Shown here piece after piece: positions 37,196 to 53,488 of a stretch of 64,000 nucleotides of DNA. Location: positions 2,976,001 to 3,040,000 of the forward strand of contig NZ_AP022586.1 of NCBI RefSeq assembly GCF_010731695.1, in the 5' to 3' direction. The stretch's first letter is position 1. Every line of letters starts with the position of its first letter. The notes beneath the pieces are model-generated. The model did no database searches and was not told the origin of the DNA. It saw only the letters and a list, made by a program, of their open reading frames with translations. Source of the DNA: Mycolicibacterium litorale (GTDB lineage Bacteria > Actinomycetota > Actinomycetes > Mycobacteriales > Mycobacteriaceae). A program made the translations under genes and the position numbers.

Positions 37196-37299
37196 CTGAC
37201 CTCCCGGCAATATCGAAGCGAGACTACCCCAGCCCGTTCGACGGCTAGCCATCGGCACGAGCGGTAGTCGCAGGTACGTACGTGTGACTGCAGTTTTCA

Positions 37300-37314: not shown

Positions 37315-37494
37315 TCATGGAGCAGATCGACAGCGACGGCGGGTGGTCCCCCATCCTCATCGGGGCCGGGCTCGTGCCGGCCGCCGGATGATCGATTCAG
37401 CGCGCGCGCCAACCTCGTGCTCACCATGGTGTGCCTTCCATACCCCGGTTTCGGCCGGCGCCAAACACCCAACTCCCATCCCAGGTAGGTGTCG

Positions 37495-38511
37495 ATGCGA
37501 CTTCGGCGCAGCGTAGTCAACGGCCCCGGACTGCGCCGGGTCCGCCGCGGCAAGGGTTTCTCGTATCAGGACCACAACGGCGACCCCGTCACCGACTCGG
37601 CGACACTCGACCGGATCAACGCGCTGGTGATCCCGCCGGCGTGGAAGAAGGTGTGGATCTGCCCCTATCACAACGGGCACATCCAGGCGGTCGGCACGGA
37701 CGCCGCGGGACGCCGCCAGTACCTCTATCACCAGCAGTGGCAGGAGGAACGCAACGAGGAGAAGTTCGACCGGGTGCTGCAGATGTCCGCGGCCCTGCCC
37801 GGGATGCGCCGGCAGCTCGCCGCGGATCTGGGCGGGCGTGGTCTGCAGCGCGACCGGGTGCTGGCGCTCGCGCTGCACCTGCTCGACCTCGGGTACTTCC
37901 GCGCCGGCGGCGAGCAGTACGCCGAGGAGAACAACTCGTTCGGCATCGCCACGCTGCTGTGCGAACACGTCAAACTCCAGCGGCAGGCGGTGGAGTTCGA
38001 CTATCCCGCCAAGAGCGGGGTCCGGCGCACCCTGGTCATCGACGACCCCGAGGTGGTGAAGTCGGTGCGGGCACTGCTGCGCCATCCGGACCGGCCGGAC
38101 CGGCTCTTCGCGTGCCGAAGTGACCAGGGCTGGGCCGAGATCCACTCCGACGATCTCAACACCCGGTTCAAGGAACTCGTCGGCGCGGAGTACTCGGTGA
38201 AGGACCTGCGCACCTGGCACGGCACCGTGCTGGCGGCCACGGCGTTCGTCGACGCCGACCCGCCGGCCAACAAGACCGTGATCAAACGCGTGGAATCGGC
38301 GGTGATGAAAGAGGTGTCCGAGGCGCTCGGGAACACCCCCGCCGTGGCGCGCGCCTCATACGTGGACCCGCGGGTGGTGACCGGTTACGAATCCGGGCTG
38401 ACGATCGCCGCGGCCGCCCGCCGGGCCGAACGCGCCAAACGCCCCGACGAGCGCCAGGCCATACTCGAGCGGAGCACCGCGCGGTTGATCCGCAAGGTCG
38501 CGAAGAGTTGA
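37495..38511 (+). CDS. DNA topoisomerase IB (poxvirus/eukaryotic type)
   Basis: 338 residues: N-terminal DNA-binding domain (GKGFSYQD, RINALVIPPAWKKVWICPYHNGHIQAVGTDAAGRRQYLYHQQW) and C-terminal catalytic domain (DLRTWHGTVLAA, KRVESAVMKEVSEALGNTPAVARASYVDP) with active tyrosine Y289. It relaxes supercoils through a 3'-phosphotyrosyl link, without ATP. Such enzymes occur in many fast-growing mycobacteria but not M. tuberculosis. ATG 37495 follows GGTAGG; a GTG lies 6 nt upstream. Confidence 0.93.
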   Translation: MRLRRSVVNGPGLRRVRRGKGFSYQDHNGDPVTDSATLDRINALVIPPAWKKVWICPYHNGHIQAVGTDAAGRRQYLYHQQWQEERNEEKFDRVLQMSAALPGMRRQLAADLGGRGLQRDRVLALALHLLDLGYFRAGGEQYAEENNSFGIATLLCEHVKLQRQAVEFDYPAKSGVRRTLVIDDPEVVKSVRALLRHPDRPDRLFACRSDQGWAEIHSDDLNTRFKELVGAEYSVKDLRTWHGTVLAATAFVDADPPANKTVIKRVESAVMKEVSEALGNTPAVARASYVDPRVVTGYESGLTIAAAARRAERAKRPDERQAILERSTARLIRKVAKS

Positions 38512-38524: not shown

Positions 38525-39814
38525 TCAGAAGCCGGTGCCGTTGCCGAGGTAGGTCAGGCCGAGCTCGACGAGCATCACGGCGTCCAGCAGGTTGCGCGTG
38601 TCGACGACCACCGCGCCGGGCGCCTGGTCGGCGATGCGCGCCCAGTCCAGGTCACGGAACTGCGGCCATTCGGTGAGCAACACGATCGCGTCGGCGCCCT
38701 TCGTCGCGAGGTAGGGGTCGTCGACACCGACGATCGCCACCGCCCGCAGCATGTCGCCGTCGATCGCACCGAGCCGCGGGTCGTAGCCGGTGACCTGCGC
38801 GCCGCGGCCCACCAGCTCGGCGCAGACGGTGAGCGCGGGTGAGTCGCGCACATCGCTGGTGCCCGCCTTGAACGTGAGGCCCAGCGCCGTGACACGGGCC
38901 TGGTCGATCGGCGTGCCGATGGTGCGGCTGACCGCATCGGCGATGCACACCGGTTGCGCGGCGTTCGTGACGCGGGCGGATTCGACCTCCGGCAGGGCGA
39001 CGCCGTACTCGCGTCCGGTGTGCAGCAGCGCGGCGGTGTCCTTCGGCAGACACGAGCCGCCCCACCCCGGGCCCGGTTGCAGGAAGTGCGCGCCGATGCG
39101 GATGTCGGCGCCCATACAGCGGGTGACGTCGGTGACGTCGGCGCCGACCTGTGCGCACAACCGGGCCAGCGAGTTCGTGTAGGAGATCTTCACCGCCAGG
39201 AACGCATTGCTCGCGTACTTGGCGACCTCGGCGCTCTCGGGGCTCATCCGCAGCACCCGACCCGGCGGATAGAGCGAGGCGACCGTGTCGGCCGGGGCGT
39301 CGTCGTCGGCGCCGATCAGGATCCGGTCGGGGTGGCGGAAGTCGCCGATGGCGTGGCTCTCACGCAGGAACTCGGGACTCGACACGGCGTGAATCCCGCT
39401 GTCGCGCAGCCGGTCTCCCACACGCCGGGTGGTGCCCACCGGTACCGTCGACTTGAGCGCCACCACCGCGCCGGGCCGCAGGACGGTCGCCAGATCGTCG
39501 ACGGCGGCGTGGACCGCCCGCAGATCGGCCGATCCGTCGGGCATGCTCGGGGTGGACACGCAGACGAAGACGACGTCGCGGTCGGCCAGCGCACGGTACT
39601 GCGCGGTGAAGCGCAGGGTGTTCGTCCGTAGTCCCCGCTCGAGCAGTTCGGGGAGGTCGGGTTCGTCGATCGTCGCGACGCCGTCGTTGAGCAGGCGCAC
39701 GCGCGCTTCGTCGACGTCGACGCACACGGTGTCGTGACCCCGCTCGGCCAGGCACACCGCGCTCGTGAGGCCGACGTAACCGGCACCGATCACGCCGACC
39801 CGCTGCGGGCTCAC
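38525..39814 (-). CDS. UDP-glucose 6-dehydrogenase
   Basis: 429 residues: N-terminal NAD fold VGVIGAGYVGLTSAVCLAERGHDTVCVDVD, middle helix region, catalytic C255 in GWGGSCLPKD, C-terminal domain with GLTFKAGTSDVRDSPAL. It oxidises UDP-glucose twice to UDP-glucuronate with 2 NAD+. With the UDP-glucuronate decarboxylase at 47.6 kb it gives UDP-xylose. The frame is open to 40408, but the GTG at 39814 overlaps the GT9 stop by 4 bp and begins at the family N-terminus. A GDP-mannose dehydrogenase is less likely. Confidence 0.88.
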   Translation of the reverse strand: MSPQRVGVIGAGYVGLTSAVCLAERGHDTVCVDVDEARVRLLNDGVATIDEPDLPELLERGLRTNTLRFTAQYRALADRDVVFVCVSTPSMPDGSADLRAVHAAVDDLATVLRPGAVVALKSTVPVGTTRRVGDRLRDSGIHAVSSPEFLRESHAIGDFRHPDRILIGADDDAPADTVASLYPPGRVLRMSPESAEVAKYASNAFLAVKISYTNSLARLCAQVGADVTDVTRCMGADIRIGAHFLQPGPGWGGSCLPKDTAALLHTGREYGVALPEVESARVTNAAQPVCIADAVSRTIGTPIDQARVTALGLTFKAGTSDVRDSPALTVCAELVGRGAQVTGYDPRLGAIDGDMLRAVAIVGVDDPYLATKGADAIVLLTEWPQFRDLDWARIADQAPGAVVVDTRNLLDAVMLVELGLTYLGNGTGF

Positions 39815-40764
39815 ACCGGCTCCTTGCGCAACGCGTCCACCGCCCCGAGTACCGCGGACACGGTGAGCGCCAACAACCCTGGGTCGGGTGCGTCGCCGTG
39901 GGGATCGCCGTCGCGACCGGCCCACAGGACGGCGTGGGGGCCGGTGCCGCGGGGACCCCAGAGGCTCGGCGGCGTGGGTCCGAACAGCAGCACCGACGGT
40001 GTGCCGGTGGCGGTGGCGATGTGGCCCACGCCGGTGTCCCCGCAGACCAGCAGCCGGCAGTCGCTGATCAGGGCCACGAGATCGAGCAGGCCGAGGGTGC
40101 CGGCCAGGACCGCGCTGCCGGGCAGCCCGGCCTGCGCGGCGACCGTGCGCGCCAGGTCGACTTCGCCTGCGTCGCCGGTGATGACCACGTCGTGGCCGTC
40201 GGCGTACAGCGCGGCGGCCACGGCGGCGAACCGTTCGGGGGGCCACCGCCGGGCCGGGAACGCGGCGCCGGGGTGGATGACGGTGACGCCCGACCGGTCG
40301 GGACACCCGGGCGGTCTCGGGATGGTGAGATCGGCTCGCTCGCAGGGGATTCCGGCCCATTCGAGCAGCCCGCACCAGCGGTCGACCTCGTGGACGTCGG
40401 TCGGCCACGCCGGACCCTGCAGCTGCGGGAACGCGTCGTGGCGATGGGTGAGGATCGAGCGGGCACCGAGGCCGAGCAGGTCGCTGATGCTCTCGGGGCC
40501 GCTGCCGTGCAGATTGACCGCCAGCACGGGTGGGGTGTGCAGCGGCCGAAGCCGGCCCAGTCCGGCGGTGGGCTGGACCGCGTCGACCGCGCCGGTGAGC
40601 AACGCCAGTTCGCCGAACCGTTCGGGGGCGGCCAGCACGATGTGGGCGTCGGGGTGGGCCCGGCGCAGGCCCCGCAGCGCGGGCACCCCGGTGAGCAGAT
40701 CCCCCAGCCCGAGCGCCCGTAACACCAGGATGGTGTCGGGCGCGGCGGTGTCGCTCAGGGCCAT
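39811..40764 (-). CDS. GT9 heptosyltransferase-like glycosyltransferase (1)
   Basis: 317 residues of the ADP-heptose:LPS heptosyltransferase family: N-terminal ILVLRALGLGDLLTGVPALRGLRRAHPDAHIVLAAPE, the middle VIHPGAAFPARRWPPERFAAVA and the C-terminal donor site CGDTGVGHIATATGTPSVLLFGP. It would transfer a heptose from the ADP-heptose made by GmhA/HldE/GmhB. ATG 40764 overlaps the end of the SDR gene by 10 bp; a longer frame to 40809 is not preferred. Confidence 0.85.
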   Translation of the reverse strand: MALSDTAAPDTILVLRALGLGDLLTGVPALRGLRRAHPDAHIVLAAPERFGELALLTGAVDAVQPTAGLGRLRPLHTPPVLAVNLHGSGPESISDLLGLGARSILTHRHDAFPQLQGPAWPTDVHEVDRWCGLLEWAGIPCERADLTIPRPPGCPDRSGVTVIHPGAAFPARRWPPERFAAVAAALYADGHDVVITGDAGEVDLARTVAAQAGLPGSAVLAGTLGLLDLVALISDCRLLVCGDTGVGHIATATGTPSVLLFGPTPPSLWGPRGTGPHAVLWAGRDGDPHGDAPDPGLLALTVSAVLGAVDALRKEPV

Positions 40765-41462
40765 GACGACTCTGTCGAGGCGGCCACCACCAACTCCCGC
40801 ACCTCGCATCCGGCCGGCTGGGTGAGCGCGAAGATGACTGTCTCCGCGACGTTCTCGGGCTGGTTGAGCTTGGCGTCCGGCGGCGGCTTGTACTGCTCGT
40901 CGCGGTTGTCGAAGAACGCGGTGTGCATTCCGCCGGGGATCAGCGTGGTCACGCCGACCTCACCGGCCAACTCGGCGGCCAGGGCGCGGGTGAAGCCGAT
41001 GACCCCGAACTTCGACGCACAGTAGGCGGTCGCGTCGCTGACCGCCTTGATGCCCAACGTGGAGGCGCACGTGACGATGCGGCCATGAGTCGCCTTGAGA
41101 TAGGGCAGCGCCGACCGCACCACCGCGGCGGTGCCGAGCAGGTTGACGTGGATGACCCGCTCCCAGTCCTTGACCGCGACGTCGTCGAGCTTTCCGCAGG
41201 CGTCGGTGCCCGCGGCGGTGAACACCCCGTCCACTCGACCGTCCACCCGCTCGGCCAGTTCACGCACCGCGGTGTCGACGGCGCCGGTGTCCGACAGGTC
41301 GCAGTGGACGAACGCGATGTCCTCACCGAGATCGGCGGGCAACGGGTTCACGTCGATCACGAGCGGTGTGCCGCCGTGCTGGAGTACGGCTTTCACGGTG
41401 GCGGCACCGAGTCCCGAAGCGCCGCCGGTGATCAGGATGTTGCCGAGGTTCTGGGTGGTCAT
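40755..41462 (-). CDS. Short-chain dehydrogenase/reductase
   Basis: 235 residues, classical SDR: cofactor motif ITGGASGLGAATVKA, acid after strand 2 (VIDVN), VFTAAGT, catalytic Ser/Tyr/Lys in CASTLG...TAYCASK. The acidic residue after strand 2 suggests NAD(H). It may modify a sugar nucleotide of the cluster, but it lacks the extended-SDR length of nucleotide-sugar epimerases (such as HldD), so its substrate is open. ATG 41462 follows AAGGACCC. Confidence 0.85.
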   Translation of the reverse strand: MTTQNLGNILITGGASGLGAATVKAVLQHGGTPLVIDVNPLPADLGEDIAFVHCDLSDTGAVDTAVRELAERVDGRVDGVFTAAGTDACGKLDDVAVKDWERVIHVNLLGTAAVVRSALPYLKATHGRIVTCASTLGIKAVSDATAYCASKFGVIGFTRALAAELAGEVGVTTLIPGGMHTAFFDNRDEQYKPPPDAKLNQPENVAETVIFALTQPAGCEVRELVVAASTESSWP

Positions 41463-41478
41463 GCAGGGTCCTTTCGGT

Positions 41479-42882
41479 TCACGACCGCACCGCGTGGGTC
41501 GAGCTGGCGGCAGCGATCAGATTGGAGGAGGAGTAGCCGGCGACGGTGGGCAGCAGCACCACCTCACCTCCGTGCCTTCGCACGACGCCTGCTTCCGGGA
41601 GGTCGGCCTCGGTGTAGTCGCCGCCCTTGACCCAGATGTCGGGCCGGAGCCGCTCGAGCGCCGCTTCGGGTGAGTTCTCGTCGAAGATCACGACCGCGTC
41701 GACGCATGCCAGCGCGGCGAGCACGCGCGCGCGGTCCTCGGCGGCCATCACGGGTCGGCTCGGGCCCTTGAGGGCCCGGACCGAGGTGTCGGAGTTCAGC
41801 AGGACCACCAGCGCGTCGCCGAGCTGGCGGGCCTGGTGCAGCAACCGCACATGGCCGGTGTGGAGGAGGTCGAAACACCCACCGGTGGCCACCAGCGTGC
41901 CACCGCGCCTGCGCAGCCGGTCCCGCACCTCGGTGATGTCGCCGGTCAGCGCGCTGGACTGGCTTGCCGCCCGGCGTCCGCCGACCGCGACAGCGCGCGA
42001 CACCCCGACGGCGCCGCCGGTGGTCACGAATCGGCTCGCCGATTCGACGGCCGCGCTGACCGCGGCCGCGGCGTCGTCACCCGCGCCGAACGCCTGTGTC
42101 GCCGCGACCGCGAACCGGTCGCCGGCACCGCAGGTGTCACGGCGGCCGGTGGACACCCCCGCCGCCGCGGGCACCGGGATGTGGACGCTGCCGGCCTCAC
42201 TGGCCAGCACCGCTCCCCCGGCGCCGAGGGTGACGCACACCGCGTGGGCACGCCACCGCTGGCGCAGCCGTTCGGCCGAGTGCGCATCGCTGTCACCGCG
42301 TTCGGAGAACCGTTCGGCCTCAGCCTGATTCGGGGTCACCAGCCAGCAACCGGATATCGGGGCGGCTCCGCGTGGGTGCGGATCCCACACCACGGGGATG
42401 CGCTCGGCAACGTCGGTCAGCAGCTGTCGGACGCCGGGATGTGCGCAGACGCCACGGCCGTAGTCGGCCACACACACCGCGCGCGCGGCGTTGAGCACCA
42501 CGGCCACCTCGTCGGGCAGGTCACCACCCGCCGCTGTGCCGTCGCCGTGGTCGAGGCGCAGCATCGACTGCCCCGCGGCACGGATTCTGGTCTTGCACAC
42601 CGTGCTCCCGGTGAGCGGCAGCGCCACCACCCGCACCCCGGCCTCCTCGAGCAGCGAGGCCAGCGCGTGGCCGTCGGCGTCGTCGGCCAGCGCGGTGACC
42701 AGGACGACGTCCCGGTCCACCCGGGCGGCCAGTACCGCGGCCAGGCCGGCGCCGCCGGGGCGGTGCCAGGTGCGCTCGGCGTCGACGACGGGGACCGGCG
42801 CCTCGGGGCTCAACCGGGTGGCGCTGCCCTCGATGTCGACGTCGAGCATCGAGTCGCCGATGATGACGAGGGGTTCAGCCAC
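41479..42882 (-). CDS. hldE: Bifunctional heptose-7-phosphate kinase / heptose-1-phosphate adenylyltransferase HldE
   Basis: 467 residues. The N-terminal ribokinase-fold domain (about 1-315) has VIIGDSMLDVDIEG, RPGGAGLAA and the catalytic loop GAGDRFA; the C-terminal nucleotidyltransferase (about 330-467) has VATGGCFDLLHTGHVRLLHQA, KGGDYTEADLP and GYSSSNLI. It makes D-glycero-beta-D-manno-heptose 1,7-bisphosphate and later ADP-heptose. GTG 42882 overlaps the gmhA stop by 8 bp. In M. tuberculosis the known heptose genes make the GDP form instead, so this is a different pathway. Confidence 0.92.
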   Translation of the reverse strand: MAEPLVIIGDSMLDVDIEGSATRLSPEAPVPVVDAERTWHRPGGAGLAAVLAARVDRDVVLVTALADDADGHALASLLEEAGVRVVALPLTGSTVCKTRIRAAGQSMLRLDHGDGTAAGGDLPDEVAVVLNAARAVCVADYGRGVCAHPGVRQLLTDVAERIPVVWDPHPRGAAPISGCWLVTPNQAEAERFSERGDSDAHSAERLRQRWRAHAVCVTLGAGGAVLASEAGSVHIPVPAAAGVSTGRRDTCGAGDRFAVAATQAFGAGDDAAAAVSAAVESASRFVTTGGAVGVSRAVAVGGRRAASQSSALTGDITEVRDRLRRRGGTLVATGGCFDLLHTGHVRLLHQARQLGDALVVLLNSDTSVRALKGPSRPVMAAEDRARVLAALACVDAVVIFDENSPEAALERLRPDIWVKGGDYTEADLPEAGVVRRHGGEVVLLPTVAGYSSSNLIAAASSTHAVRS

Positions 42883-43441
42883 GGGGCGCTCCCACCACGT
42901 CGTCGACGGCCATGCACAGCCCGTGCACCAGCAGCAGGTGGATCTCCTGCACGGTCGCACCGCTGGGAGCGTCGACGCAGATCGCGTCGTCACACATCGC
43001 CGCGAGCGGATTCGGCGCCGGACCGGTCAGCGCCCAGCACGTCAGCCCCATTTCGTGGCCGGCCTTCACCGCCGCCAGCACGTTGGGGCTGGTGCCGCTC
43101 GTGGACAGGGTGACCAGCACGTCGCCGGGCCTGCCATGGGCGCGCACCCCCCTGGCGAAGACCTCTTCGACGCCGTAGTCGTTGGCGATCGCGGTGAGTG
43201 CGGAGGTGTCCGCGTGCAAGGAGATGGCGGACAACGGTATTCGTTCACCCATGAACCGCCCGACGAGTTCGGCGGTCAGATGCTGTGCCTCGGCGGCGCT
43301 GCCACCGTTGCCGCAGGCCAGCAACCGGCCTCCGGAGGTCAGCACCCCGGCCAGGTGCCTGCCCCAGGCGTTCACCCGTGGCGTCTCGACGCCGATGCGG
43401 GTCAACGCCTCGGCGAGTGCGGAAATGTGCGTCTCGATCAT
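42875..43441 (-). CDS. gmhA: Sedoheptulose 7-phosphate isomerase GmhA
   Basis: 188 residues, SIS fold with the GmhA signature LLACGNGGSAAEAQHLTAELVGRF and the C-terminal QEIHLLLVHGLCM zinc/active-site helix. It converts sedoheptulose 7-phosphate to D-glycero-D-manno-heptose 7-phosphate, the first step of heptose nucleotide synthesis. ATG 43441 follows GGGAGGAG and overlaps the preceding GT9 stop (ATGA). hldE follows directly. Confidence 0.93.
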   Translation of the reverse strand: MIETHISALAEALTRIGVETPRVNAWGRHLAGVLTSGGRLLACGNGGSAAEAQHLTAELVGRFMGERIPLSAISLHADTSALTAIANDYGVEEVFARGVRAHGRPGDVLVTLSTSGTSPNVLAAVKAGHEMGLTCWALTGPAPNPLAAMCDDAICVDAPSGATVQEIHLLLVHGLCMAVDDVVGAPRG

Positions 43442-44457
43442 GGTTCTCCTCCCAATCGATCGACCGCGGCGAGCAGTTCGCTGTCGCTGATGCCGTCCAG
43501 ACACGGATGGCCGGGTACCGGACAGGTGCGGGCACGGGTGAGCCGGCACGGCGCCTCCTGGTCGCCCAGGCGAAGCACGGTGCGGCCGTAGGGACTCCAC
43601 TGCGACGCCGGCACCACCGGCGCGAACAGTGAGACCACCGGCACGCCGACGGCGGCGGCCAGGTGTGCGGGGCCGGTGTTGGGCACGACCACCACCCGGG
43701 CCGCTGCGTACAGCGCGGCCAGTGTGGGCAGCGTCGTGCGGCCCCCGAGGTCGAGCGCCACGTCGGCGGCGACCTGACGGGTGAGGTCTTTCTCCGCAGC
43801 GTCACCGGTCACGACGACCCGGTGCCCGGCGGCCGTCAGCGCCGCAACCATCTCTTCGCTGCGGTGTGCGCTGGGCCGGCGGGCGGGTACCGCCGCTCCG
43901 GGGTGGAACACCACGTACGGTCCGGCGGCGGCGATCTCGGCGAGATCCCCGGTCAGCGGCGCCGGCGGACGCACCCGCAGCGCCCCGTCGTCGCCGTCGG
44001 GCAGCGCGCAGTCCCCTGCCCGGGCCAGTGACAGTGCGCGTTCCGGTTCCGGGATCCCCGGTTCGACATGGTGGCGCAGGTCGAGCAGTGTGCCCGGATA
44101 GTCCTCGCTGATCGCCCCCACCCACGGCACCGAGGCCATCCGCAGGATCAGCGCGAGGGGCAGCGGGGACTGGTGGAACGACGTGAAGACGAAGGCGCGG
44201 TCCGGCCGGATGTCCCGCAGTTGTTTGACCAGCGACTCGACGTGGCCTGCGGTCAGCTCCGGCGAGTCGAAATCCACCCAGGGCGCCTGCCATTCGACGA
44301 TCTCGTCGACACCGGGCAGCAACTCGGCGGCCGCCCGCCCCCTGGGTCCGGAGAGGAACGTCACCGAATCGTGGTGCTCGGCGACCGCGCGGACGGCAGG
44401 TCCGGTGATCAACACGTCACCGGCACTGTCCAGGCGCGCCACCAGAGCCTTCGTCAT
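43438..44457 (-). CDS. GT9 heptosyltransferase-like glycosyltransferase (2)
   Basis: 339 residues: N-terminal ALVARLDSAGDVLITGPAVRAVA, the segment FTSFHQSPLPLALILRMASVPWVGAISEDYPG, the nucleotide site VVFHPGAAVPARRPSAHRSEEMV and VVVPNTGPAHLAAAVGVPVVSLFAP. Same family as the GT9 at 39.8 kb but diverged, so two successive heptose (or related) additions are likely. ATG overlaps the stop of the GT2-GmhB fusion by 4 bp. Confidence 0.86.
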   Translation of the reverse strand: MTKALVARLDSAGDVLITGPAVRAVAEHHDSVTFLSGPRGRAAAELLPGVDEIVEWQAPWVDFDSPELTAGHVESLVKQLRDIRPDRAFVFTSFHQSPLPLALILRMASVPWVGAISEDYPGTLLDLRHHVEPGIPEPERALSLARAGDCALPDGDDGALRVRPPAPLTGDLAEIAAAGPYVVFHPGAAVPARRPSAHRSEEMVAALTAAGHRVVVTGDAAEKDLTRQVAADVALDLGGRTTLPTLAALYAAARVVVVPNTGPAHLAAAVGVPVVSLFAPVVPASQWSPYGRTVLRLGDQEAPCRLTRARTCPVPGHPCLDGISDSELLAAVDRLGGEP

Positions 44458-45959
44458 CGCGTGTCCCGAAGGATCATCTCCACCGCATCCTCGATCGTCG
44501 CGGCCACCCGCGCCCTGGTGCTGGCGTCGGAGATCTCGTGGCGCAGCGTGCGTTCGGTGGGTACGAGCACCGCATCGGCGCGCGCCGAGAGGGCGGCGTT
44601 CACGTCGCCGCCGGTGTCGCCGATCATCACGCACCGCGCCGGGTCGACGCCGAGTGCCTCAGCCGCGGCCCGCACCATCCCAGGTGCCGGTTTGCGGCAC
44701 GCACATCCGTCGTCGTTGTCGTGCACGCAGATCTGCCACGAGTCGAACGGCCCGAGTTCGGCGTCGACCCGGGCGTTGACCGCGGCGAGCTGCTCGTCGG
44801 TGATCAACCCCTTCGCGACCCCGGACTGGTTGGTCACCACGGCGAGCAGCAGGCCGCGGTCGCGTAACCGGCTCAGGGCGTCGACCGCACCGGGCATCGG
44901 CTTCACCCCGGCCGGGTCGTTCAGGTACGGCCCGTCCACGATGATGGTGTCGTCGCGGTCGAGCAGGACGGCCAGCGGCGGGTCGCGTCGCGCACCGCGG
45001 AACGCCCACTCGCCGCGTAGCCGGTGGTACATGGCCACCGGCGGGATCAGGGCGCTGGTGAGCAGCATCCGGGCCGCCTCGGGCGCGGTGCGCGGTCCCG
45101 CGAGGAACCGGCGCGCGGTGAACTCGAGCGTCAGCCCCAGCCATGTGGCGGCGGCCCCCGCGGCAGCGCGCCGTCGTCCTGCCAGCGCCGCCACCGTGGC
45201 GACGGCCGCGGCGGCGGTCGTCGCGGTGTGCGCGGGTAGCCGGCCGCGGCCCTCGCCGACCGCCGGTCGCCAGCGTCTGCCGAACTTGCGCCGCATCAAT
45301 GCGTTGTCGCGGTTGCCGATCTGCGCACGCACGCTGCTCAACAGCGACGCCGGCGCGACCGGATGGGTGGAGCGCCGGGCACCCTGGGTGATCTCATTGC
45401 CCTGCAGCGTGATTCGCAGCGCGATGTCCGAGTCCTCCCGGTAGGCCCGCGGGAACCGCTCGTCGAAACCGCCGACCGCCACCAGCACGTCGCGCCGGTA
45501 CGCCATGTCCGCGGTGATCCACCGGGCGTCGGCCAGGCGCTGGGTGCGCTTCTCGTCGTCGGTGGCGCGCCGGCCCTCGACGCTGGGCACCTCGATGACC
45601 GCCTGGGTGCCCGCGGCCCCGGTGGTGTCGGCGCCGCGCAGATCGGCGGCAAGGGCCGCCAGCCAGCCGGGTTGCGGGACGACGTCGTCGTCGACGAAGC
45701 ACACCCAGCGGGTGCGCGTGGCCCGCCAGCCCGTGTTGCGCGCGGCTGCCGGTCCGCGACCGCCGCTGCGCAGCACCGTGACCGGGAGGCCGCTGTGCAC
45801 GGTGAGCGCGGGCGCATCCCCGGGGCGATCGTCGACGATGACCACGGCTTCGGGCGGGGGCCCGCTTTCGGCTTCGAGCGCGGCGAGCAGCCGGTGCAGC
45901 GACTCCCGGCCGATCGTCGGGACGACGATCGAGAACGATGCGGTCTGCGCTGCCGTCAC
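44454..45959 (-). CDS. Fusion of GT2 glycosyltransferase and GmhB-type heptose-bisphosphate phosphatase
   Basis: 501 residues. Residues about 1-240 are a GT-A family 2 transferase (FSIVVPTIGRESL, VDDRP, WVCFVDDDVVPQPGWL, FDERFPRAYREDSDIALRI). A hydrophobic alanine-rich segment (about 275-345, probably membrane-associated) leads to a complete HAD-IIIA phosphatase (about 350-501): LLDRDDTII, VVTNQSGVAKGL, the zinc-binding cysteine loop ending CACRKPAPGM, MIGDTGGDV. The phosphatase half is GmhB, removing the 7-phosphate before HldE adenylylates position 1. No frame break separates the halves. GTG 45959 overlaps the carbamoyltransferase stop (GTGA). Confidence 0.88.
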   Translation of the reverse strand: MTAAQTASFSIVVPTIGRESLHRLLAALEAESGPPPEAVVIVDDRPGDAPALTVHSGLPVTVLRSGGRGPAAARNTGWRATRTRWVCFVDDDVVPQPGWLAALAADLRGADTTGAAGTQAVIEVPSVEGRRATDDEKRTQRLADARWITADMAYRRDVLVAVGGFDERFPRAYREDSDIALRITLQGNEITQGARRSTHPVAPASLLSSVRAQIGNRDNALMRRKFGRRWRPAVGEGRGRLPAHTATTAAAAVATVAALAGRRRAAAGAAATWLGLTLEFTARRFLAGPRTAPEAARMLLTSALIPPVAMYHRLRGEWAFRGARRDPPLAVLLDRDDTIIVDGPYLNDPAGVKPMPGAVDALSRLRDRGLLLAVVTNQSGVAKGLITDEQLAAVNARVDAELGPFDSWQICVHDNDDGCACRKPAPGMVRAAAEALGVDPARCVMIGDTGGDVNAALSARADAVLVPTERTLRHEISDASTRARVAATIEDAVEMILRDTR

Positions 45960-47611
45960 ACGGCCCTCCGCACCAGGAAGGGCCCGATCGCGAGCACGTC
46001 GATGGGACTGCTGCCGAAGCATTCCAGCGCGTCGCGGGGACTGTCGACCATCGGGCGGCCCGCGGTGTTGAAGCTGGTGTTGACGACCACCGGCACCCCG
46101 GTGCGTTCGGCGAACCGGCTGATGGTGGCGTGCAGCAGCGGCTGGCTGTCGTCGACGGTCTGGATGCGGGCGGTGTTGTCGACGTGGGTGACCGCGGGGA
46201 TCCGGGAGCGCCACTGCTCGGCGACCTCGTGCACGAACAGCATGTACCGGCTCGGAATCGGGCCGCCCGAGAAGATGTCGCCGGCCCGCTCGGCCAGCAC
46301 CATGGGCGCCACCGGCCGGAACTGCTCGCGCCCCTTGACGGTGTTGAGCCGCTCCAGGTTCTCGATGCGGCGGGGGTCGGCGAGCAGCGACCGATTGCCC
46401 AGGGCACGGGGCCCGAACTCGGCCCGGCCCTGGAACCAGCCGATCAGCTTGTCATCGGCCAGCGCATCACCGACCGCGGCGGCGAAGTCGTCCGGGCGTT
46501 CGAACGGGACCGCCGCTTCGCGCAGCGTCGCCTCGATCTCGTCGTCGGTGAAACCGCGGCCCAGCGAGGCCGACGGCATCGGGCTGATCGGCTCGCCGGC
46601 CTCACCGGCCAGGGACAGCGCGGCCCCGAGCGCCGTGCCCGAATCGCCCGCCGCCGGCTGCACCCAGACGTTGTCGAAGCCACCGCGGGCGAAGATCTTC
46701 GAGTTGGCGACGCAGTTGAGCGCCACTCCTCCGGCCAGGCACAGGTTGTCGGAGTCGGTCCGTCCGCGCAGCCAGCCCACCAGGTCGAGCAGCAACTCCT
46801 CGACCACGTGCTGCACGCTGCACGCCAGGTCGGCGTGTTCGGGTTCCGGACGGTCCAGGGCATGACCTTTACCCGCGCCCGCCTTGCGTTTCGGGGTGAA
46901 CGACTCCCAGTCGACCGGTTCGGTGCGGAAACCGCCGTCGCCGGTGGCGTACACGGAGTCCCGCAACCGGCCGGCGAATCTCGGCGTGCCGTAGGACGCC
47001 ATGGCCATCACCTTGTACTCGTCGCTGGAGCGCGCGAACCCGAGGTGTTCGGTGAGCTCCTCGTAGAACAGCCCCAGTGAGTGCGGAAGTGACTGTGTGG
47101 CAAGCACATCGATCTTCTGATCGCGGTAGGTGCCCGCTAGCATGGACGCTCGCTCACCGCGGCCGTCGACGACCAGCACCGCGCAGTCCGGGTGCGGCGA
47201 GGCCAGCGCGCCGGACGCCGCATGCGCGACATGGTGGCGGACATGACGCACGATGCTGGGGTCCAGTCCGGGCAGCGCGGACTGCAGGAATCGCGGCGCC
47301 CGCTCGGCGTAGAGCGTGCGCAGGTACTCCCAGTCCCGGTCGAGTCCGGCCATGCCGGTGGTCGTCTCGTCCATCAGGCTCGGGTCGTAGGAGTAGCCGA
47401 CGGAATCGAGGTCCGCAGGGGTGAGGCCGGCCTGCTCCAGGCACCAGCGCGCCGCGGCCACCGGCATCTCCCAGGTGGAGAACGGCACCGCCTGCTTACC
47501 GTGCTTCCGACGGGAGAACCGTTCCTCTTCGGCGGCCGCCACGATCTGACCGTCCACGACAAGTGCCGCGGCCGGATCGTGGAACACCGCGTTGATGCCG
47601 AGAATTCGCAT
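45956..47611 (-). CDS. O-carbamoyltransferase (NodU/CmcH family)
   Basis: 551 residues. The N-terminal Kae1-like domain has RILGINAVFHDPAAALVVDG, AAEEERFSRRKH and VRHHVAHAASGAL; the C-terminal part has LAGGVALNCVANSK, FQGRAEFGPRALGNRSLLADPR and VNTSFNTAGRPMVDSPRDALECF, all typical of the family. It would carbamoylate a hydroxyl of a sugar using carbamoyl phosphate and ATP. It is inside the glycan operon, so the target is probably the heptose/xylose glycan. The ATG at 47611 has AGGGGA upstream, 11 bp after the decarboxylase stop. Confidence 0.92.
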   Translation of the reverse strand: MRILGINAVFHDPAAALVVDGQIVAAAEEERFSRRKHGKQAVPFSTWEMPVAAARWCLEQAGLTPADLDSVGYSYDPSLMDETTTGMAGLDRDWEYLRTLYAERAPRFLQSALPGLDPSIVRHVRHHVAHAASGALASPHPDCAVLVVDGRGERASMLAGTYRDQKIDVLATQSLPHSLGLFYEELTEHLGFARSSDEYKVMAMASYGTPRFAGRLRDSVYATGDGGFRTEPVDWESFTPKRKAGAGKGHALDRPEPEHADLACSVQHVVEELLLDLVGWLRGRTDSDNLCLAGGVALNCVANSKIFARGGFDNVWVQPAAGDSGTALGAALSLAGEAGEPISPMPSASLGRGFTDDEIEATLREAAVPFERPDDFAAAVGDALADDKLIGWFQGRAEFGPRALGNRSLLADPRRIENLERLNTVKGREQFRPVAPMVLAERAGDIFSGGPIPSRYMLFVHEVAEQWRSRIPAVTHVDNTARIQTVDDSQPLLHATISRFAERTGVPVVVNTSFNTAGRPMVDSPRDALECFGSSPIDVLAIGPFLVRRAV

Positions 47612-47622
47612 CCGTCGTTCCC

Positions 47623-48606
47623 CTAACTCGCTGTCTTCGTCTGTGCCACGGCGTATTCGGAGGTGGGATCCATCGACCGGAACCACTCGACCGTCCGCGC
47701 CAGCCCGTCCCGATAGGGCACTCGCGGTTCCCAGCCCAGGTGTTCGCGTGCCGTCGCGATGTCCGGACAGCGCCGCTGGGGGTCGTCCTCGACGGCGGGC
47801 AGGAACTCGATGGCCGAGTCGGCGCCCGCGAGGTCGCGGATGATCTCGGCGACCTGGTTGACGGTCAGTTCGTGTGGGTTGCCGATGTTGACCGGGCCCG
47901 GATACCCCGACCGGGCCAGTGCGAGCAGGCCTTCGACGGTGTCGTCGACGTAGCACAGGGACCGCGTCTGGCCGCCCGAGCCGGTGACGGTCATCGGTTC
48001 GCCGGCGAGCGCCTGGCGGATGAACGTCGGGACCATCCGGCCGTCATGGGACCGCATCCTGGGCCCGTAGGTGTTGAAGATGCGGGCGACTCCCACATCG
48101 GTGTCGCGCTCGCGGCGGTGTGCGAACGTCAGCGCCTCGGCGTAGCGCTTGGCCTCGTCGTACACGCTGCGCGGGCCGATGGGATTGACGTTGCCCCAAT
48201 AGGTTTCGGGCTGGGGGTGCTCGAGCGGGTCACCGTACACCTCGCTGGTCGACGCCAGCACCAGCCGGGCGCCATGGCGTTCGGCGGCCGAGAGCGCGTT
48301 GGCGGTGCCCATGGCGCCGGTGTGCAGCGTGTGCAGCGGCAGCCGCAGGTAGTCGGCGGGTGAGGCCGGCGAGGCGAGGTGAAACACGACGTCCACCGGT
48401 TGCCCGAACGCCCGGCCGGTCAGCGGTTCGGTGATGTCGTGGCGCACGAACTGGTAGTGCGCGTGATCGCGGAGCAGGTTCTCGGCGGTGGGGGCGCTGG
48501 TCGACAGATCGTCGACGCAGATCACCTCGACGCCGGTGGCCAGTAACCGTTCACACAGGTGGCCGCCGACGAAGCCGCAACCACCGAGCACCAGAGCCCG
48601 GGTCAT
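47623..48606 (-). CDS. UDP-glucuronate decarboxylase (UDP-xylose synthase)-like epimerase/dehydratase
   Basis: 327 residues, extended SDR: VLGGCGFVGGHLCERLL, VFHLASPASPADYLRLP, catalytic STSEVYGDP and SVYDEAKRYAE, NTYGPRMRSHDGR, and RSLCYVDDTVEG. The HLASPASP-x-x-Y and GPR-x-x-YDE-x-KR sequences are hallmarks of UDP-glucuronate decarboxylase, giving UDP-xylose. Its substrate would come from the dehydrogenase at 38.5 kb. ATG 48606 is used; the frame stays open upstream. First gene of the long minus-strand run. Confidence 0.87.
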   Translation of the reverse strand: MTRALVLGGCGFVGGHLCERLLATGVEVICVDDLSTSAPTAENLLRDHAHYQFVRHDITEPLTGRAFGQPVDVVFHLASPASPADYLRLPLHTLHTGAMGTANALSAAERHGARLVLASTSEVYGDPLEHPQPETYWGNVNPIGPRSVYDEAKRYAEALTFAHRRERDTDVGVARIFNTYGPRMRSHDGRMVPTFIRQALAGEPMTVTGSGGQTRSLCYVDDTVEGLLALARSGYPGPVNIGNPHELTVNQVAEIIRDLAGADSAIEFLPAVEDDPQRRCPDIATAREHLGWEPRVPYRDGLARTVEWFRSMDPTSEYAVAQTKTAS

Positions 48607-48688
48607 GTCATGCACCACGCCGCAATACCCCCGAAGTAGTAGGGAAAACGCTGTTTGCCGGGTGGCCCGCCGGGTACGGACAGCGACC

Positions 48689-49573
48689 ATGGGGCAACGG
48701 AATTCGTCGCGAACGACGTTCGTGATCGCCAGCCGGGACCGGGCGGACGAACTCCGCTCCGTCGTGATCCGCCTGCTGGACACCACCCGGTGCCCGGTCA
48801 TCGTGGTGGACAACGATTCTCGCGATGACTCGGTGGCCGCCGTCCAGCGTGTGGCGGCACGTGCGGCAGGCCGGGTGCGCGTGGTCGAACTCGACAGCAA
48901 CCGCGGCGCCGTGGGCCGCAACGCCGGCGTTGCGGCCGCCGCGACCCCGTACGTGGCGTTCTGTGACGACGACTCCTGGTGGCAGCCCGACGCTCCGGCC
49001 ATCGCCGAGCAGACCTTCGACGCCTATCCGCACGTCGGACTCCTCGCCGCGCGCACCATCGTGTTGCCCCGCGACGAGGAGGACCTGTTCTCCAGGATGC
49101 TCGCCGACAGCCCGCTGGGGCATCCCCCGCATCTGCCCGGTCCGGCCATCCTCGGTTTCATGTCCTGCGCGGCGATCGTGCGCAAGGTGGCGTTCCAGCA
49201 GGCCGGCGGGTTCTCCGAGATCCTGCACTTCCGCGGCGAAGAGATGCTGCTCGCCGTGGACATGACGTCGCTGGGCTGGAACCTGTGCTACTGCCCCGCG
49301 CTGGTGGCGATGCACCAGCCGTCCCAGGTGCGCGCGACCACCGCCGCGCAGGCCGCCCGCGTGCTGCGCAACGACGTGCTGACCACCTGGCTGCGCCGTC
49401 CCGCGCGACGATGTCTGCGCGCCACCGGCACGCTGCTCACCGCGTCGCTGCGCGATACCGAACACGCCAGGGCCGCAGCCGAAGCCGTGAGGCGTGTGCC
49501 TGCGGTGCTGCGCCGGCGCCGCCGGCTGCCCGATCGGGTGGAGCGAGCGCTGGAACTGCTGGAGTCCGCATGA
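48689..49573 (+). CDS. Glycosyltransferase family 2
   Basis: 294 residues: FVIASRDRADELRSVVIRLL, VDNDSRDDS, RNAGVAAAATPYVAFCDDDSWW (DXD motif), and a C-terminal basic, helical region. Divergent from the UXS gene, so transcribed apart from the main operon but clearly part of the same locus; its sequence shares the CDDD/VDDD style motif with the GT2 half of the fusion. No membrane helix. The sugar added is unknown. Confidence 0.84.
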   Translation: MGQRNSSRTTFVIASRDRADELRSVVIRLLDTTRCPVIVVDNDSRDDSVAAVQRVAARAAGRVRVVELDSNRGAVGRNAGVAAAATPYVAFCDDDSWWQPDAPAIAEQTFDAYPHVGLLAARTIVLPRDEEDLFSRMLADSPLGHPPHLPGPAILGFMSCAAIVRKVAFQQAGGFSEILHFRGEEMLLAVDMTSLGWNLCYCPALVAMHQPSQVRATTAAQAARVLRNDVLTTWLRRPARRCLRATGTLLTASLRDTEHARAAAEAVRRVPAVLRRRRRLPDRVERALELLESA

Positions 49574-49578
49574 CGCAG

Positions 49579-50820
49579 TCATACCGACGAAGCGGTCGTC
49601 GTCGCGGATGTCCTGGCGGAGTCGCCGGCCTGATAGGCGGCGGGCACCAGCCGGTCGTAGATGCGCAGCGTATCGGCCGCGACACGGTCCCATGAGTAGC
49701 GGGCGCGAGCGCGGTCGCGTCCGGCGGCGCCCAGACTCTGCCGCAGGAACTCGTCGTGGAGCAGGGTGTTGATCGATTCGGCGACCTCAACGGGGCGTTT
49801 CGGGGTGACCAGCCGACCGGTGACGTCGTGGACGACGGTGTCGAGCATTCCGCCGACGGCGGCGGCCACCACGGGGACACCGCACGCCATGGCCTCCAGG
49901 GGGACGATGCCGAACGGCTCGTACCACGGTGTGCAGGCCACGACGTCGGCCGACCGCAACAACGCGGGCATATCCGCGCGGGCCACCGCGCCCTGGAACA
50001 CCAGCCGGTCGCTGACGCCGAGTCGCTCGGCGAGGTCACGCAGCCGCCGGGCCTCCGGATCGGCCTCCACTTCGGACCGGTCGGGCCCGCCGACCAGCAC
50101 GAGTTCCGCGTCGGGAATCGCGGGCAGGGCACGGACCACCACGTCGAATCCCTTGCGCGGCACGAACCTTCCGACACTGACGACGCGGTAACGCGCGCCG
50201 CGTTCGGCGCGCGGACCGTCCGGTGTGAACAGGTCGAGGTCGACCCCGCACGGCACCACGGAGATCCGGTTGCGCGCGCGACCGAGGCGCATGAGTTCGA
50301 ACACCTCGTCGGTGCAGGTGGCCGCGACCCAGGTCGCGGTGCGGGCCACCATCGCCTCCAGCTTCAGCCGGTCCTCGGGGCTGGTGTCGAGTGCGCCCTG
50401 ATGGCGGCGTTTCACCACGCCCAGGGCATGGAACGTCTGGACCGCGGGCAGGCCGAGATGCCGGGCGGCCAGCTGGGTGGCCAGGCCGGACATCCAGAAG
50501 TGCGCGTGGGCCACATCGGGCCGGTCCGTACTCCACTGATCGTCGAGATACTGGGCGAACGGACCCATGTGGACCAGCAGTTCGTCCTTGGGCAGCGAGC
50601 GCGCGGGGCCGGCGGGCACGTGCACCACGGTGTAACCCTGCGGTGTGGTGACGCGTTCGGGAAGGTCCGCATCGTCGCGGCGGGTGTAGACGGTGACGTC
50701 GTGACCACGGCGGGCCAGCGCGGCCGACAACTCGGCGACATGGACGTTCTGCCCACCGGCGTCCACCCCGCCGAGCGCGGCCAGCGGGCTGGCGTGTTCG
50801 GACACCATTGCGATCTTCAT
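49579..50820 (-). CDS. Glycosyltransferase family 4 (MshA/sucrose synthase-like)
   Basis: 413 residues, GT-B fold: N-terminal SEHASPLAALGGVDAGGQNVHVAELSAALARRGHDVTVYTRR and HAHFWMSGL, central VPCGVDLDLFTPDG, donor site VGRFVPRKGFDVVVRAL and the EX7E motif YEPFGIVPLEAMACG. The GGVDAGGQNVHV loop is typical of phospho-inositol/sucrose-phosphate type transferases. ATG 50820 follows AGAGGAAG. It converges on the GT2 with 5 bp between stops. Confidence 0.88.
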   Translation of the reverse strand: MKIAMVSEHASPLAALGGVDAGGQNVHVAELSAALARRGHDVTVYTRRDDADLPERVTTPQGYTVVHVPAGPARSLPKDELLVHMGPFAQYLDDQWSTDRPDVAHAHFWMSGLATQLAARHLGLPAVQTFHALGVVKRRHQGALDTSPEDRLKLEAMVARTATWVAATCTDEVFELMRLGRARNRISVVPCGVDLDLFTPDGPRAERGARYRVVSVGRFVPRKGFDVVVRALPAIPDAELVLVGGPDRSEVEADPEARRLRDLAERLGVSDRLVFQGAVARADMPALLRSADVVACTPWYEPFGIVPLEAMACGVPVVAAAVGGMLDTVVHDVTGRLVTPKRPVEVAESINTLLHDEFLRQSLGAAGRDRARARYSWDRVAADTLRIYDRLVPAAYQAGDSARTSATTTASSV

Positions 50821-50840
50821 CGGCTTCCTCTCTCGCGAGG

Positions 50841-51809
50841 TCATCTGCAGCAGTCGTCGATCAACCGGTCCCAGTCGCGCAGGAACCGGTCGAGCGAGAA
50901 GTGCGCCACCGCGAAATCACGTGCCGCCTTGCCCGCGGCCCTCGCCGCGGACGGATCGGACACGAACCCTTCCAAGGCCGATGCCAGCGTCTCGACATCG
51001 GCACTCACCACCCCCGCCTCGGCGGGCACCACCAGCGGCGCCATCGTCGAAGCGACAGCCACCACGGGCATTCCCAGGAACATCGCCTCCAGCAGCGACA
51101 GGCCCAGCGACGTCCATCGCGCCGTGTGCAGGAAGACCCGGCGACGCGCCACGTCCTGCCACAGCTGCGGCCCCGGAACGTCACCCTGGGCATGCACACC
51201 CGGCCAGTCCCGCTCGGCGAGGGCGGGTGTCCCGATGCCCCACACGTCGATCGGCACGCGGGCGCCCAGCGGGGCCAGCAGATCGGTGCCGACCGTGCGC
51301 CACCGGCGCAGCGGTTCGTTGATCATCGTCGCCGCCGCCGCGATGTCACCGCGGTACCGCATGCCGGGGTCGGCGATGCCGTGGTCGATCACCATCGTGG
51401 GCGCCTTGCCGTTGTCCCACATCAACCGGTTGAAGTCGGTGACGTGGACGACGGGGATGTCACTGCGCTCGGCCAGCGGATGCACGCTGTCCACCGCGAG
51501 CGGCCGCGGCGCGTTGTGTTCGACGAAGACGGCGGGCACATCGACTCCGGGCCGGCGGCCGGTCCACCGCTCGGTCAGCTCGATCTCTTCCGGGCGCTGC
51601 AGGATCACCAGGTCGATGTCCTCGTCGCGCAGGCGGTCCGCATCGACCTCGCGCGCCTGCGGCCAATCCCGGCCGAGCAGCCCGCGGCCGTCGGCGTCCT
51701 TGGCCGCGTTCACCGGGATCAGGTACCGGTGCTCACCGGCGACCAGTGCCTGCATCCAGGAGCCGTGCACGTGCCAGGCCAGTAATGCGCGCTGCCCGAC
51801 GGACGACAT
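50841..51809 (-). CDS. Glycosyltransferase (GT-B, GT4-like)
   Basis: 322 residues. N-terminal LLAWHVHGSWMQALVAGEHRYLIPVN, then VILQRPEEI, FVEHNAPRP and the C-terminal SLGLSLLEAMFLGMPVVAVAST, the GT4 donor motif. The middle is shorter than in standard GT4 proteins. It precedes the other GT4 by 20 bp and probably shares its message. The specificity is unknown. Confidence 0.78.
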   Translation of the reverse strand: MSSVGQRALLAWHVHGSWMQALVAGEHRYLIPVNAAKDADGRGLLGRDWPQAREVDADRLRDEDIDLVILQRPEEIELTERWTGRRPGVDVPAVFVEHNAPRPLAVDSVHPLAERSDIPVVHVTDFNRLMWDNGKAPTMVIDHGIADPGMRYRGDIAAAATMINEPLRRWRTVGTDLLAPLGARVPIDVWGIGTPALAERDWPGVHAQGDVPGPQLWQDVARRRVFLHTARWTSLGLSLLEAMFLGMPVVAVASTMAPLVVPAEAGVVSADVETLASALEGFVSDPSAARAAGKAARDFAVAHFSLDRFLRDWDRLIDDCCR

Positions 51810-51915
51810 GAGGCCGACTTACCCGGGGCACTGGTCGGTAAACCTCGAACGTTAGAGATTTCGGGTTCGGTCACGAACACGTTCTCGAAGTGGACGTCAC
51901 CTGCCGAAACGTGCT

Positions 51916-52853: not shown

Positions 52854-52890
52854 CCCGTGACCACGGGTTCGATCTAGCTGAAAGGTGAGC

Positions 52891-53127
52891 ATGACCGAGA
52901 AGAACAGTGGTCCCGAAGAAGGCATCAAGGGCGCCGTCGAAGACATCAAGGGCAAGGCCAAGGAAACGGTCGGCACCGTGGCCGGCCGTGACGACATGGT
53001 CCGCGAGGGCAAGGCCCAGCAGGACAAGGCCGATGCTCAGCAGGACGCAGCCCGCAAGGAAGCCGAGGCCGAAGCCGCCCGCGGTGGCGCCAAGGCCGCC
53101 GAAGAGCGCCAGAAGAGCGAGCAGTAA
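52891..53127 (+). CDS. CsbD family stress protein
   Basis: 78 residues, highly charged, no membrane segment: KGAVEDIKGKAKETVGTVAGRDDMVREGKAQQDKADAQQDAA is the CsbD signature, with a longer alanine/lysine/glutamate-rich helical tail. CsbD proteins are abundant under general stress (SigB in Bacillus); function unknown. AAAGGTG lies before the ATG, and a Rho-independent terminator follows the stop. Confidence 0.92.
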   Translation: MTEKNSGPEEGIKGAVEDIKGKAKETVGTVAGRDDMVREGKAQQDKADAQQDAARKEAEAEAARGGAKAAEERQKSEQ

Positions 53128-53179: not shown

Positions 53180-53488
53180 TCAGCGGGACGGCCGCTGAGG
53201 TTGGGCGTCGGGATGCTCGGCGTACCAACGCTCTTCGATGTTCTTCACGCGACGGTGCGCGATCAGGAACCAAGCGCCGGCCACCACGAACACCACGGCG
53301 GAGATGCAGCCGAGCACCACACCCACCGAGTGGTTGGAGGTGGCGTGCGCCGCCAGCGCGGCGACGAACGAGACGAGCGCCACCCCGAGCAGGATCAGCG
53401 CCGGCATGTTCTTGGTGTCCTTCATCGTCTCACCGGCGTGCGGACGGGTGGTCCGTGCGTGATCAACGGGGTCTTCTGGGGTCTTCAT
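53180..53488 (-). CDS. usfY: UsfY-like small membrane protein
   Basis: 102 residues. N-terminal DPVDHARTTRPHAGETMKDT precedes two membrane helices (about 29-47 and 55-76) and a basic, polar C-terminus. The N-terminal sequence and gene order (next to the Rv3289c-like gene and lat) identify it as UsfY, a SigF-dependent mycobacterial protein of unknown function. In M. tuberculosis it adjoins rsbW; here about 16 kb separate them. AAGGAGG precedes the ATG, and a consensus SigF promoter lies upstream. Confidence 0.8.
   Translation of the reverse strand: MKTPEDPVDHARTTRPHAGETMKDTKNMPALILLGVALVSFVAALAAHATSNHSVGVVLGCISAVVFVVAGAWFLIAHRRVKNIEERWYAEHPDAQPQRPSR

Follow-up and report, generated by a model that had tools for sequence, protein, structure and literature searches.

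What does a mycobacterium build with a set of genes whose counterparts serve heptose chemistry in the lipopolysaccharide (LPS) core of Gram-negative bacteria? The question is raised by a cluster at positions 38525-51809 of a 64,000-nucleotide stretch of Mycolicibacterium litorale DNA (hereafter the window; positions 2976001-3040000 of the 5.58-Mb single-contig genome), which a first-pass annotation had read as a locus for a carbamoylated glycan with heptose and xylose, and had framed as a mycobacterial oddity beside LPS. That framing was not borne out. Its gene set and orthology mark the cluster as the mycobacterial counterpart of cwg, an actinobacterial operon of which a version occurs in Streptomyces, and it probably serves a SigF-controlled, stress-induced envelope glycan carrying heptose, xylose and carbamate.

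Gene layout and relation to the cwg operon

Genes were called from codon-position composition, start codons and family searches, and these calls together with Pfam and NCBIfam scans gave twelve genes in three transcription units. The first unit, on the minus strand, consists of two family 4 glycosyltransferase genes, GT4b-GT4a; the second is a lone family 2 glycosyltransferase gene, GT2, divergent on the plus strand; and the third, again on the minus strand, holds nine genes in the order UXS-CarbT-[GT2-GmhB]-GT9b-GmhA-HldE-SDR-GT9a-UGD, where UXS denotes UDP-glucuronate decarboxylase (UDP-xylose synthase), CarbT an O-carbamoyltransferase, SDR a short-chain dehydrogenase and UGD a UDP-glucose 6-dehydrogenase-like protein. 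The scans recovered at this one locus every gene family named in the first-pass annotation, whose list was right but had omitted the SDR. Its description of genes mostly on one strand with 4-10 bp overlaps also held, GT2 (48689-49573) being on the plus strand, yet the minus-strand joints include gaps of 16, 11 and 20 bases besides overlaps of 4, 10, 8, 4, 4 and 4 bases. A candidate minus-strand protein at 48608-49693 was rejected, as its frame has no family and the true gene is the plus-strand GT2. The named close relatives of the window proteins come from M. litorale, Mycobacterium sp. IS-1496 and M. doricum.

Hong et al. are said to have described, in 2002, the genes SCO6179-6190 of S. coelicolor as cwg, a putative cell wall glycan operon. 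In the available part of a later account, cwg is a vancomycin-induced, partly SigE-dependent operon of 12 genes, and SCO6178 is listed as a putative deacetylase (PMC6767563); the available part of another gives the eighth gene, SCO6186, as a phosphoheptose isomerase and the ninth, SCO6187, as a bifunctional synthase/transferase (PMC5839063). We compared the window cluster with cwg by way of these published annotations and promoters and the sequence of one related locus, L097. This locus belongs to Streptomyces: its HldE shares 96% identity at 88% coverage with the HldE of Streptomyces sp. 4F, and among the listed matches all those that bear an organism name were from Streptomyces. Its genes run UXS-CarbT-GT2-GmhB-GT9b-GT4b-GT4a-GmhA-HldE-GT9a-GT2-GT2, of which UXS, CarbT, GT2, the GmhB-like phosphatase, GT4a, GmhA, GT9a and the last two GT2s were checked with Pfam. 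Of the six other cwg annotations that this source gives, five read 'transferase' at places where the L097 order has transferases, and the sixth, the 'dehydratase' SCO6182 at the place of GmhB, was a loose fit (PMC5839063). Furthermore, L097 carries 27 of the 29 bases of the published SigE promoter of cwg, about 150-200 bases 5' of UXS, and 24 of the 29 bases of the promoter published for SCO6178, ahead of a divergent polysaccharide deacetylase gene. The gene order, the promoters and the deacetylase therefore identify L097 as a cwg operon and the window cluster as its mycobacterial form, the orthologous UXS, CarbT, GT2, GmhB, two GT9, two GT4, GmhA and HldE showing tblastn identities of 44-67%.

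The two forms share this gene set, a further GT2 and a stress-type promoter. The mycobacterial form differs in adding UGD and the SDR, in fusing GT2 to GmhB and in having one GT2 fewer; its order is also different, with three transcription units in a split, divergent layout instead of a single operon, and with SigF-type instead of SigE-type promoters. No deacetylase gene adjoins the window cluster, whose flanks hold a topoisomerase IB gene and an SDR gene; no search of the window was aimed at SigE-type sites. The published cwg accounts, in their available parts, contain no structure of the glycan, and in most of them its role is described as putative, tentative or predicted; the structure appears to be unsolved. 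Among the literature titles and beginnings of abstracts listed, none reported this cluster in mycobacteria or the structure of the cwg product.

Predicted enzymes

We next consider whether the proteins have what the proposed chemistry needs. Motif conservation was counted in alignments that comprised 53-83 rows with the window among them, for residues that we take to be catalytic or metal-binding; across the cluster enzymes these are invariant or nearly so. The predicted four-step ADP-heptose set, consisting of GmhA, the HldE kinase, GmhB and the HldE adenylyltransferase, appears complete with intact active-site motifs. GmhA, the sedoheptulose-7-phosphate isomerase (42875..43441, minus strand; PF13580), matched only phosphoheptose isomerases or DiaA in the PDB (15/15; best 5i01, E 1.4e-45), and keeps His54, Glu58 and Gln165 in 83/83 rows and His173 in 80/80. 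HldE, the heptose-7-phosphate kinase/heptose-1-phosphate adenylyltransferase (41479..42882, minus strand; PF00294 + PF01467), matched the heptose kinase 4e84 with its kinase half and 5x9q with its adenylyl half, with the GAGD and HxGH motif residues present in 81-82 of 82 rows. GmhB is indeed present, but it is not the separate protein that had been expected: it forms the C-terminal half of a 501-aa GT2-GmhB fusion (44454..45959, minus strand; PF00535 + PF00702/PF13242), and matches the D,D-heptose-1,7-bisphosphate phosphatases 4pnh (E 5e-21) and 2gmw (E 1e-19). The DxD and CxH..CxC residues of this fusion occur in 65/65 rows, and both PF00535 and PF00702 were found in all of at least 120 homologues of 468-520 aa, the window's own included. 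The fusion is therefore not a frameshift artefact, and a separate GmhB gene was rejected.

None of the 14 genome matches to the epimerase HldD, which would give L,D-heptose, reached the cut-off, so that ADP-D,D-heptose is the expected donor; UXS was rejected as a candidate HldD, being far closer to UXS1. At position 5 of the GxSTT-type motif of HldE, the window protein has Tyr, as do 57/82 rows. The available part of one study links Arg at this position to CDP/UDP use (PMC11461863), and Tyr in its place, in our own reading of the window HldE, makes a preference for ADP likely. The two heptosyltransferase-like GT9 proteins, GT9a (39811..40764, minus strand; PF01075, E 2.8e-26) and GT9b (43438..44457, minus strand; PF01075, E 1.9e-19), are the only PF01075 matches at E<=0.001 in the whole 5.58-Mb genome, and the best PDB match of GT9b is the ADP-heptose LPS heptosyltransferase II 1psw (E 3e-08). 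The classical SDR (40755..41462, minus strand; PF00106), with the Tyr and Lys of Y..SK in 70/70 rows, is a possible modifier of heptose or of another sugar.

For the xylose branch, UGD (38525..39814, minus strand; PF03721/PF00984/PF03720) scored 401.6 bits against TIGR03026 (cut-off 189.8), and the Cys of its catalytic motif GGSCLPKD is kept in 51/51 rows. UXS (47623..48606, minus strand) matched the UDP-glucuronate decarboxylase 1 (UXS1) structures 4gll/2b69 at E ~2e-100, the next family following at 2e-39, and its alignment contains the Tyr-Lys pair and the UXS signature. CarbT (45956..47611, minus strand; PF02543 + PF16861) is of the NodU/TobZ type, with the novobiocin carbamoyltransferase 9s2t (E 2.2e-99) as well as TobZ and GdmN among its PDB matches. 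A carbamoylated heptose beside heptosyltransferase genes is on record, in the available part of one source, for the Pseudomonas LPS core, with the putative transferase WapO (PMC8005017).

The remaining glycosyltransferases are GT2 (48689..49573, plus strand; PF00535, E 1.2e-16 when scanned on 48671-49573), GT4b (50841..51809, minus strand; PF00534, E 8.9e-10), which is the first gene of its unit, and GT4a (49579..50820, minus strand; PF00534/PF13439). GT4a matched Tll1590 (6kih, E 1.8e-64) and 3c48 (E 7e-52), and is related to MshA, scoring 247 bits against TIGR03449, under the cut-off of 462.5. We take Tll1590 to be a sucrose-phosphate synthase, and Tll1590 and MshA-type enzymes presumably act on phospho-sugar acceptors. 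The nearest structures, the conserved motifs and the class-wide co-occurrence described below thus support, as a prediction, the chemistry that the first-pass annotation had proposed: ADP-heptose, UDP-xylose, GT9 transfer and O-carbamoylation.

Distribution among actinobacteria

A search for HldE across 198 genus genomes gave matches at E<=1e-3 in 55 and at E<=6.4e-159 in 44, the window's genome included. We then compared 46 genus neighbourhoods chosen for their HldE match, namely those of the 43 other strong matches, of genome G100, where a partial HldE match is surrounded by cluster genes (L074), and of two divergent HldE copies. As the first-pass annotation had suggested looking for, the same gene set recurs in the genus: all twelve genes lie together in 36/46 neighbourhoods, the core seven in 40/46 and some cluster genes in 44/46, which means that the grouping is not due to chance. 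M. arosiense (L027) has eleven of the twelve, and the SDR lies between GT9a and HldE in 44/46. The two divergent HldE copies (L073, L075) have no cluster genes around them by set scores.

At family level, HldE was found at E<=1e-40 in 33/251 genomes, representing 11/31 genera, and at class level in 93/394 genomes and 45/137 genera. Outside the genus there were 25 matching genomes in the family and 82 beyond it; from each group, 20 were picked for strength and spread, hence not at random, and the core seven occur together in 14/20 family and 11/20 class neighbourhoods, some stretches being cut by contig ends. The SDR is absent from 10/20 class neighbourhoods. In a quick HldE tree with some long branches, which serves as a guide only, the 44 genus rows group together with the window in one clade (SH-aLRT 99), beside members of the family. 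This single clade fits inheritance with many losses, and a recent horizontal gain within the genus was rejected on the same guide.

Several variants were also observed. GT4a, GT4b and GT2 are absent from the fetched stretches of L063, L071 and L082, which retain the rest. A second, divergent HldE paralogue, ~34-40% identical, occurs in L073, L075, L094, L095 and several class genomes, with a GT9-like gene on the opposite strand beside it in L073, L094 and L095; in some actinobacteria it is present alongside the cluster or in its place, and it possibly belongs to a separate heptose system. In G473, G463, G611, G612 and G657, the HldE match is split into kinase and adenylyl pieces.

SigF-type promoters in the sigF locus

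The cluster is bracketed by usfY (53180..53488, minus strand; NF041247 UsfY, 138.7 bits, cut-off 100) and by rsbW-sigF, in which rsbW (36761-37360, minus strand) was assigned from PF13581 and its position and sigF (35973-36764, minus strand) from NF005514 (SigF, 491.6 bits, cut-off 372); an L-lysine 6-transaminase gene lies beyond. In the available part of the M. smegmatis literature, the SigF promoter consensus is GTTT-N(14-19)-GGGTA (PMC4694148), and genes near usfY and sigF are described as SigF-dependent as well. A search of the 64-kb window for this motif gave five sites, where 0.16 were expected. Two precede rsbW-sigF (37441-37466) and usfY (53518-53542), and the other three, all GTTT-N15-GGGTA, precede the three units of the cluster: GT4b-GT4a (51820..51843, minus strand), the nine-gene unit from UXS to UGD (48626..48649, minus strand) and GT2 (48653..48676, plus strand). 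The five sites and the flanking genes therefore place the cluster inside the sigF locus. Ahead of the three cluster units, 10-19 bases separate the end of the motif from the start codon.

We then followed the motif through the genus. The regions upstream of GT4b align poorly, save for gTTT, GGGTA and a CATG at the start or immediately ahead of it, and the motif with a spacer of 14-17 lies within 100 bases before GT4b in 36/42 members, the window included. Before GT2, where a wider stretch was searched, it is present in 39/40 neighbourhoods. As a positive control, it was found before rsbW in 16/21, and before the internal genes HldE (0/46), GmhA (0/43), GT9b (0/42), GT9a (0/44) and SDR (0/44) it was never found (0/219 in total). 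Permuted motifs reached up to 18/41 and 32/40, these being register shifts of the same site, and elsewhere at most 2 and 0 loci. Outside the genus, the motif is rare in the family (1/15, 3/16 and 2/12) and nearly absent in the class (0/17, 1/15 and 0/8). A SigF of at least 70% identity is within reach in 19/46 genus neighbourhoods, and UsfY in 18/46. The motif precedes GT4b in 14/19 neighbourhoods with sigF and in 21/22 without sigF nearby, and is therefore not a by-product of position. These results suggest that SigF switches on the cluster from three putative promoters. The cluster shares with the M. smegmatis SigF regulon the promoter consensus and a place at the sigF/usfY locus, where several regulon genes lie; in the available text of the M. 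smegmatis SigF regulon literature that we searched for it, the term 'heptose' did not occur.

Two further genes stand at the borders of the cluster. A bacterial type IB topoisomerase gene (37489-38511, plus strand) lies directly between rsbW and the cluster, and in neighbourhoods that lack sigF (L027, L068-L070 and L074) a relative is likewise found close to the cluster. Between the cluster and usfY is a gene for a CsbD-like 'microaggregate-binding protein 1' (52885-53127, plus strand; NF050175, over the cut-off).

Discussion

We predict the substrates, the product structure, the place in the cell and the SigF dependence of this system as follows. Stress would free SigF, and the three units would be transcribed from near-leaderless promoters; in Streptomyces, the orthologous operon is driven at least partly by SigE. 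GmhA, the HldE kinase, GmhB and the HldE adenylyltransferase would convert sedoheptulose-7-phosphate into ADP-D-glycero-D-manno-heptose, UGD and UXS would convert UDP-glucose into UDP-xylose, and the GT4, GT2 and GT9 enzymes would assemble a short or repeating D,D-heptose/xylose glycan. CarbT would O-carbamoylate this glycan, perhaps at heptose, as occurs in the Pseudomonas LPS core. Most likely, the product is a stress-induced envelope glycan; export would be the weak step of the proposal, and an exported glycan is one option only.

Several observations weigh against this proposal. The heptose enzymes missed the NCBIfam equivalog cut-offs: GmhA scored 156.7 bits against TIGR00441 (cut-off 209.45), HldE 281.6 against PRK11316 (521), its kinase part 139.6 against 345, its adenylyl part 180.9 against 181.5, and GmhB 80.5 against 149.6 and 124.9 against 178 in two models. 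Their substrates could therefore differ, which makes the assignment a prediction. Within the fetched stretches, UGD is absent in L031, L034 and L068 and UXS in L034 and L055, so xylose may not be obligatory. As for regulation, the strict motif precedes UXS in only 16/41 genus neighbourhoods (18 with a relaxed pattern), is absent before GT4b in 6/41 and also occurs before the internal gene CarbT in 4/43. On the Streptomyces side, the cwg promoter is clear in L097 only: L102 has 22/29 bases of it and 20/29 of the SCO6178 promoter, six other loci have only 17-19, and a strict SigE-type regular expression found no site before UXS in the five tested Streptomyces-family loci with UXS. Finally, family scans of the cluster detected no flippase, polymerase, ATP-binding cassette (ABC) exporter or priming membrane transferase. 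Nor was any of these functions recognised as widely conserved beside the 40 non-genus clusters among open reading frames of at least 150 aa, which is odd for an exported polysaccharide.

The last point bears on an alternative, in which the product is a soluble or lipid-borne oligosaccharide whose synthesis takes place wholly in the cytoplasm; a stress metabolite that the MshA-like GT4a initiates on a phospho-sugar would be an example. By hydropathy, none of the 12 proteins has a convincing membrane span, although four GT-B proteins have peaks of 1.8-2.0. In the neighbour survey, eight gene groups were shared by at least four of the 40 non-genus loci, and the three identified by Pfam were a pyruvyl transferase, an aldehyde dehydrogenase and a major facilitator superfamily (MFS) transporter, the last in four loci of one genus only. 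A recurring ABC exporter or polymerase was thus rejected, as none was recognised among the eight groups, of which three were Pfam-identified. A soluble product would be compatible with GT4a, whose nearest matches are Tll1590 and MshA-type enzymes. SigF acts in stress, and cwgA and SCO6178 rise with salt according to the available part of one report (PMC13011467). On the other hand, a gene resembling those for polysaccharide pyruvyl transferases (PF04230, confirmed by Pfam in L091 and L102) stands beside the cluster in 9/40 non-genus loci (L077, L078, L079, L081, L087, L088, L091, L097 and L102), and together with the Streptomyces deacetylase it points to a polysaccharide, whose export could use machinery encoded elsewhere. 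We regard such an oligosaccharide as unlikely, though deserving attention.

We are similarly doubtful that the enzymes supply a different activated sugar, such as another heptose, one that the SDR has altered, or a different nucleotide form, leaving no plain D,D-manno-heptose in the glycan. The missed cut-offs and the conserved position of the SDR between GT9a and HldE would fit such a sugar, and the bleomycin and septacidin sugar pathways are known cases of rewired heptose. However, the enzymes retain their catalytic and metal motifs, which are conserved, the SDR is lacking from half of the class neighbourhoods, and HldE has Tyr where Arg is linked to CDP/UDP use (PMC11461863, available part). 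Much less probable is a natural-product sugar cassette that decorates a secreted metabolite. The CarbT relatives of solved structure do act on antibiotics (novobiocin, TobZ, GdmN), and the bleomycin-type cassette combines an HldE-like enzyme, a GT9 and a carbamoyltransferase. Two GT9, two GT4 and two GT2 domains with no non-ribosomal peptide synthetase or polyketide synthase gene in the cluster, a single lineage within the genus, conservation across the class and stress-type promoters nevertheless make this very improbable.

The cwg-type reading also places the cluster relative to other known systems. It has the GmhA-HldE-GmhB-GT9 logic of the Gram-negative LPS core in common, and a carbamoyltransferase beside heptosyltransferases, as for the 7-O-carbamoyl heptose of Pseudomonas (WapO), but differs in its UDP-xylose branch, in organism and acceptor and in having no HldD over the cut-off; no Kdo or lipid A family was found among the cluster genes and the scanned neighbours. 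Tang and co-workers (2018/2022) reportedly described actinobacterial NDP-heptose enzymes for septacidin and hygromycin B with tridomain synthetases, which likewise form a heptose nucleotide from sedoheptulose-7-phosphate. The window instead has a free GmhA and a two-domain HldE, in a glycan-type cluster rather than that of a nucleoside antibiotic.

More tentatively, and with greater reserve than for the cwg-type reading itself, we propose a stress glycan bearing heptose, xylose and carbamate that is common to many Actinomycetes, and whose operon was rewired from SigE in Streptomyces to SigF in mycobacteria, lies inside the sigF locus in part of the genus, and would give these mycobacteria both an ADP-heptose pool and an assembly by soluble enzymes without a dedicated exporter. 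Since 2002, cwg has served as a marker of envelope stress, and the accounts found still call its product putative; a complete kit for ADP-heptose, UDP-xylose and carbamoylation that recurs across the class now gives a concrete cwg structure to look for. If the proposal is true, the cluster would be a new output of SigF in mycobacteria and would supply ADP-heptose to organisms believed to have no LPS-type heptose chemistry, to be added to mycobacterial stress physiology. ADP-heptose is a small molecule recognised by the mammalian sensor ALPK1, and mycobacteria would then hold a pool of the kind that this sensor recognises. What cwg builds thus becomes a directly testable question.

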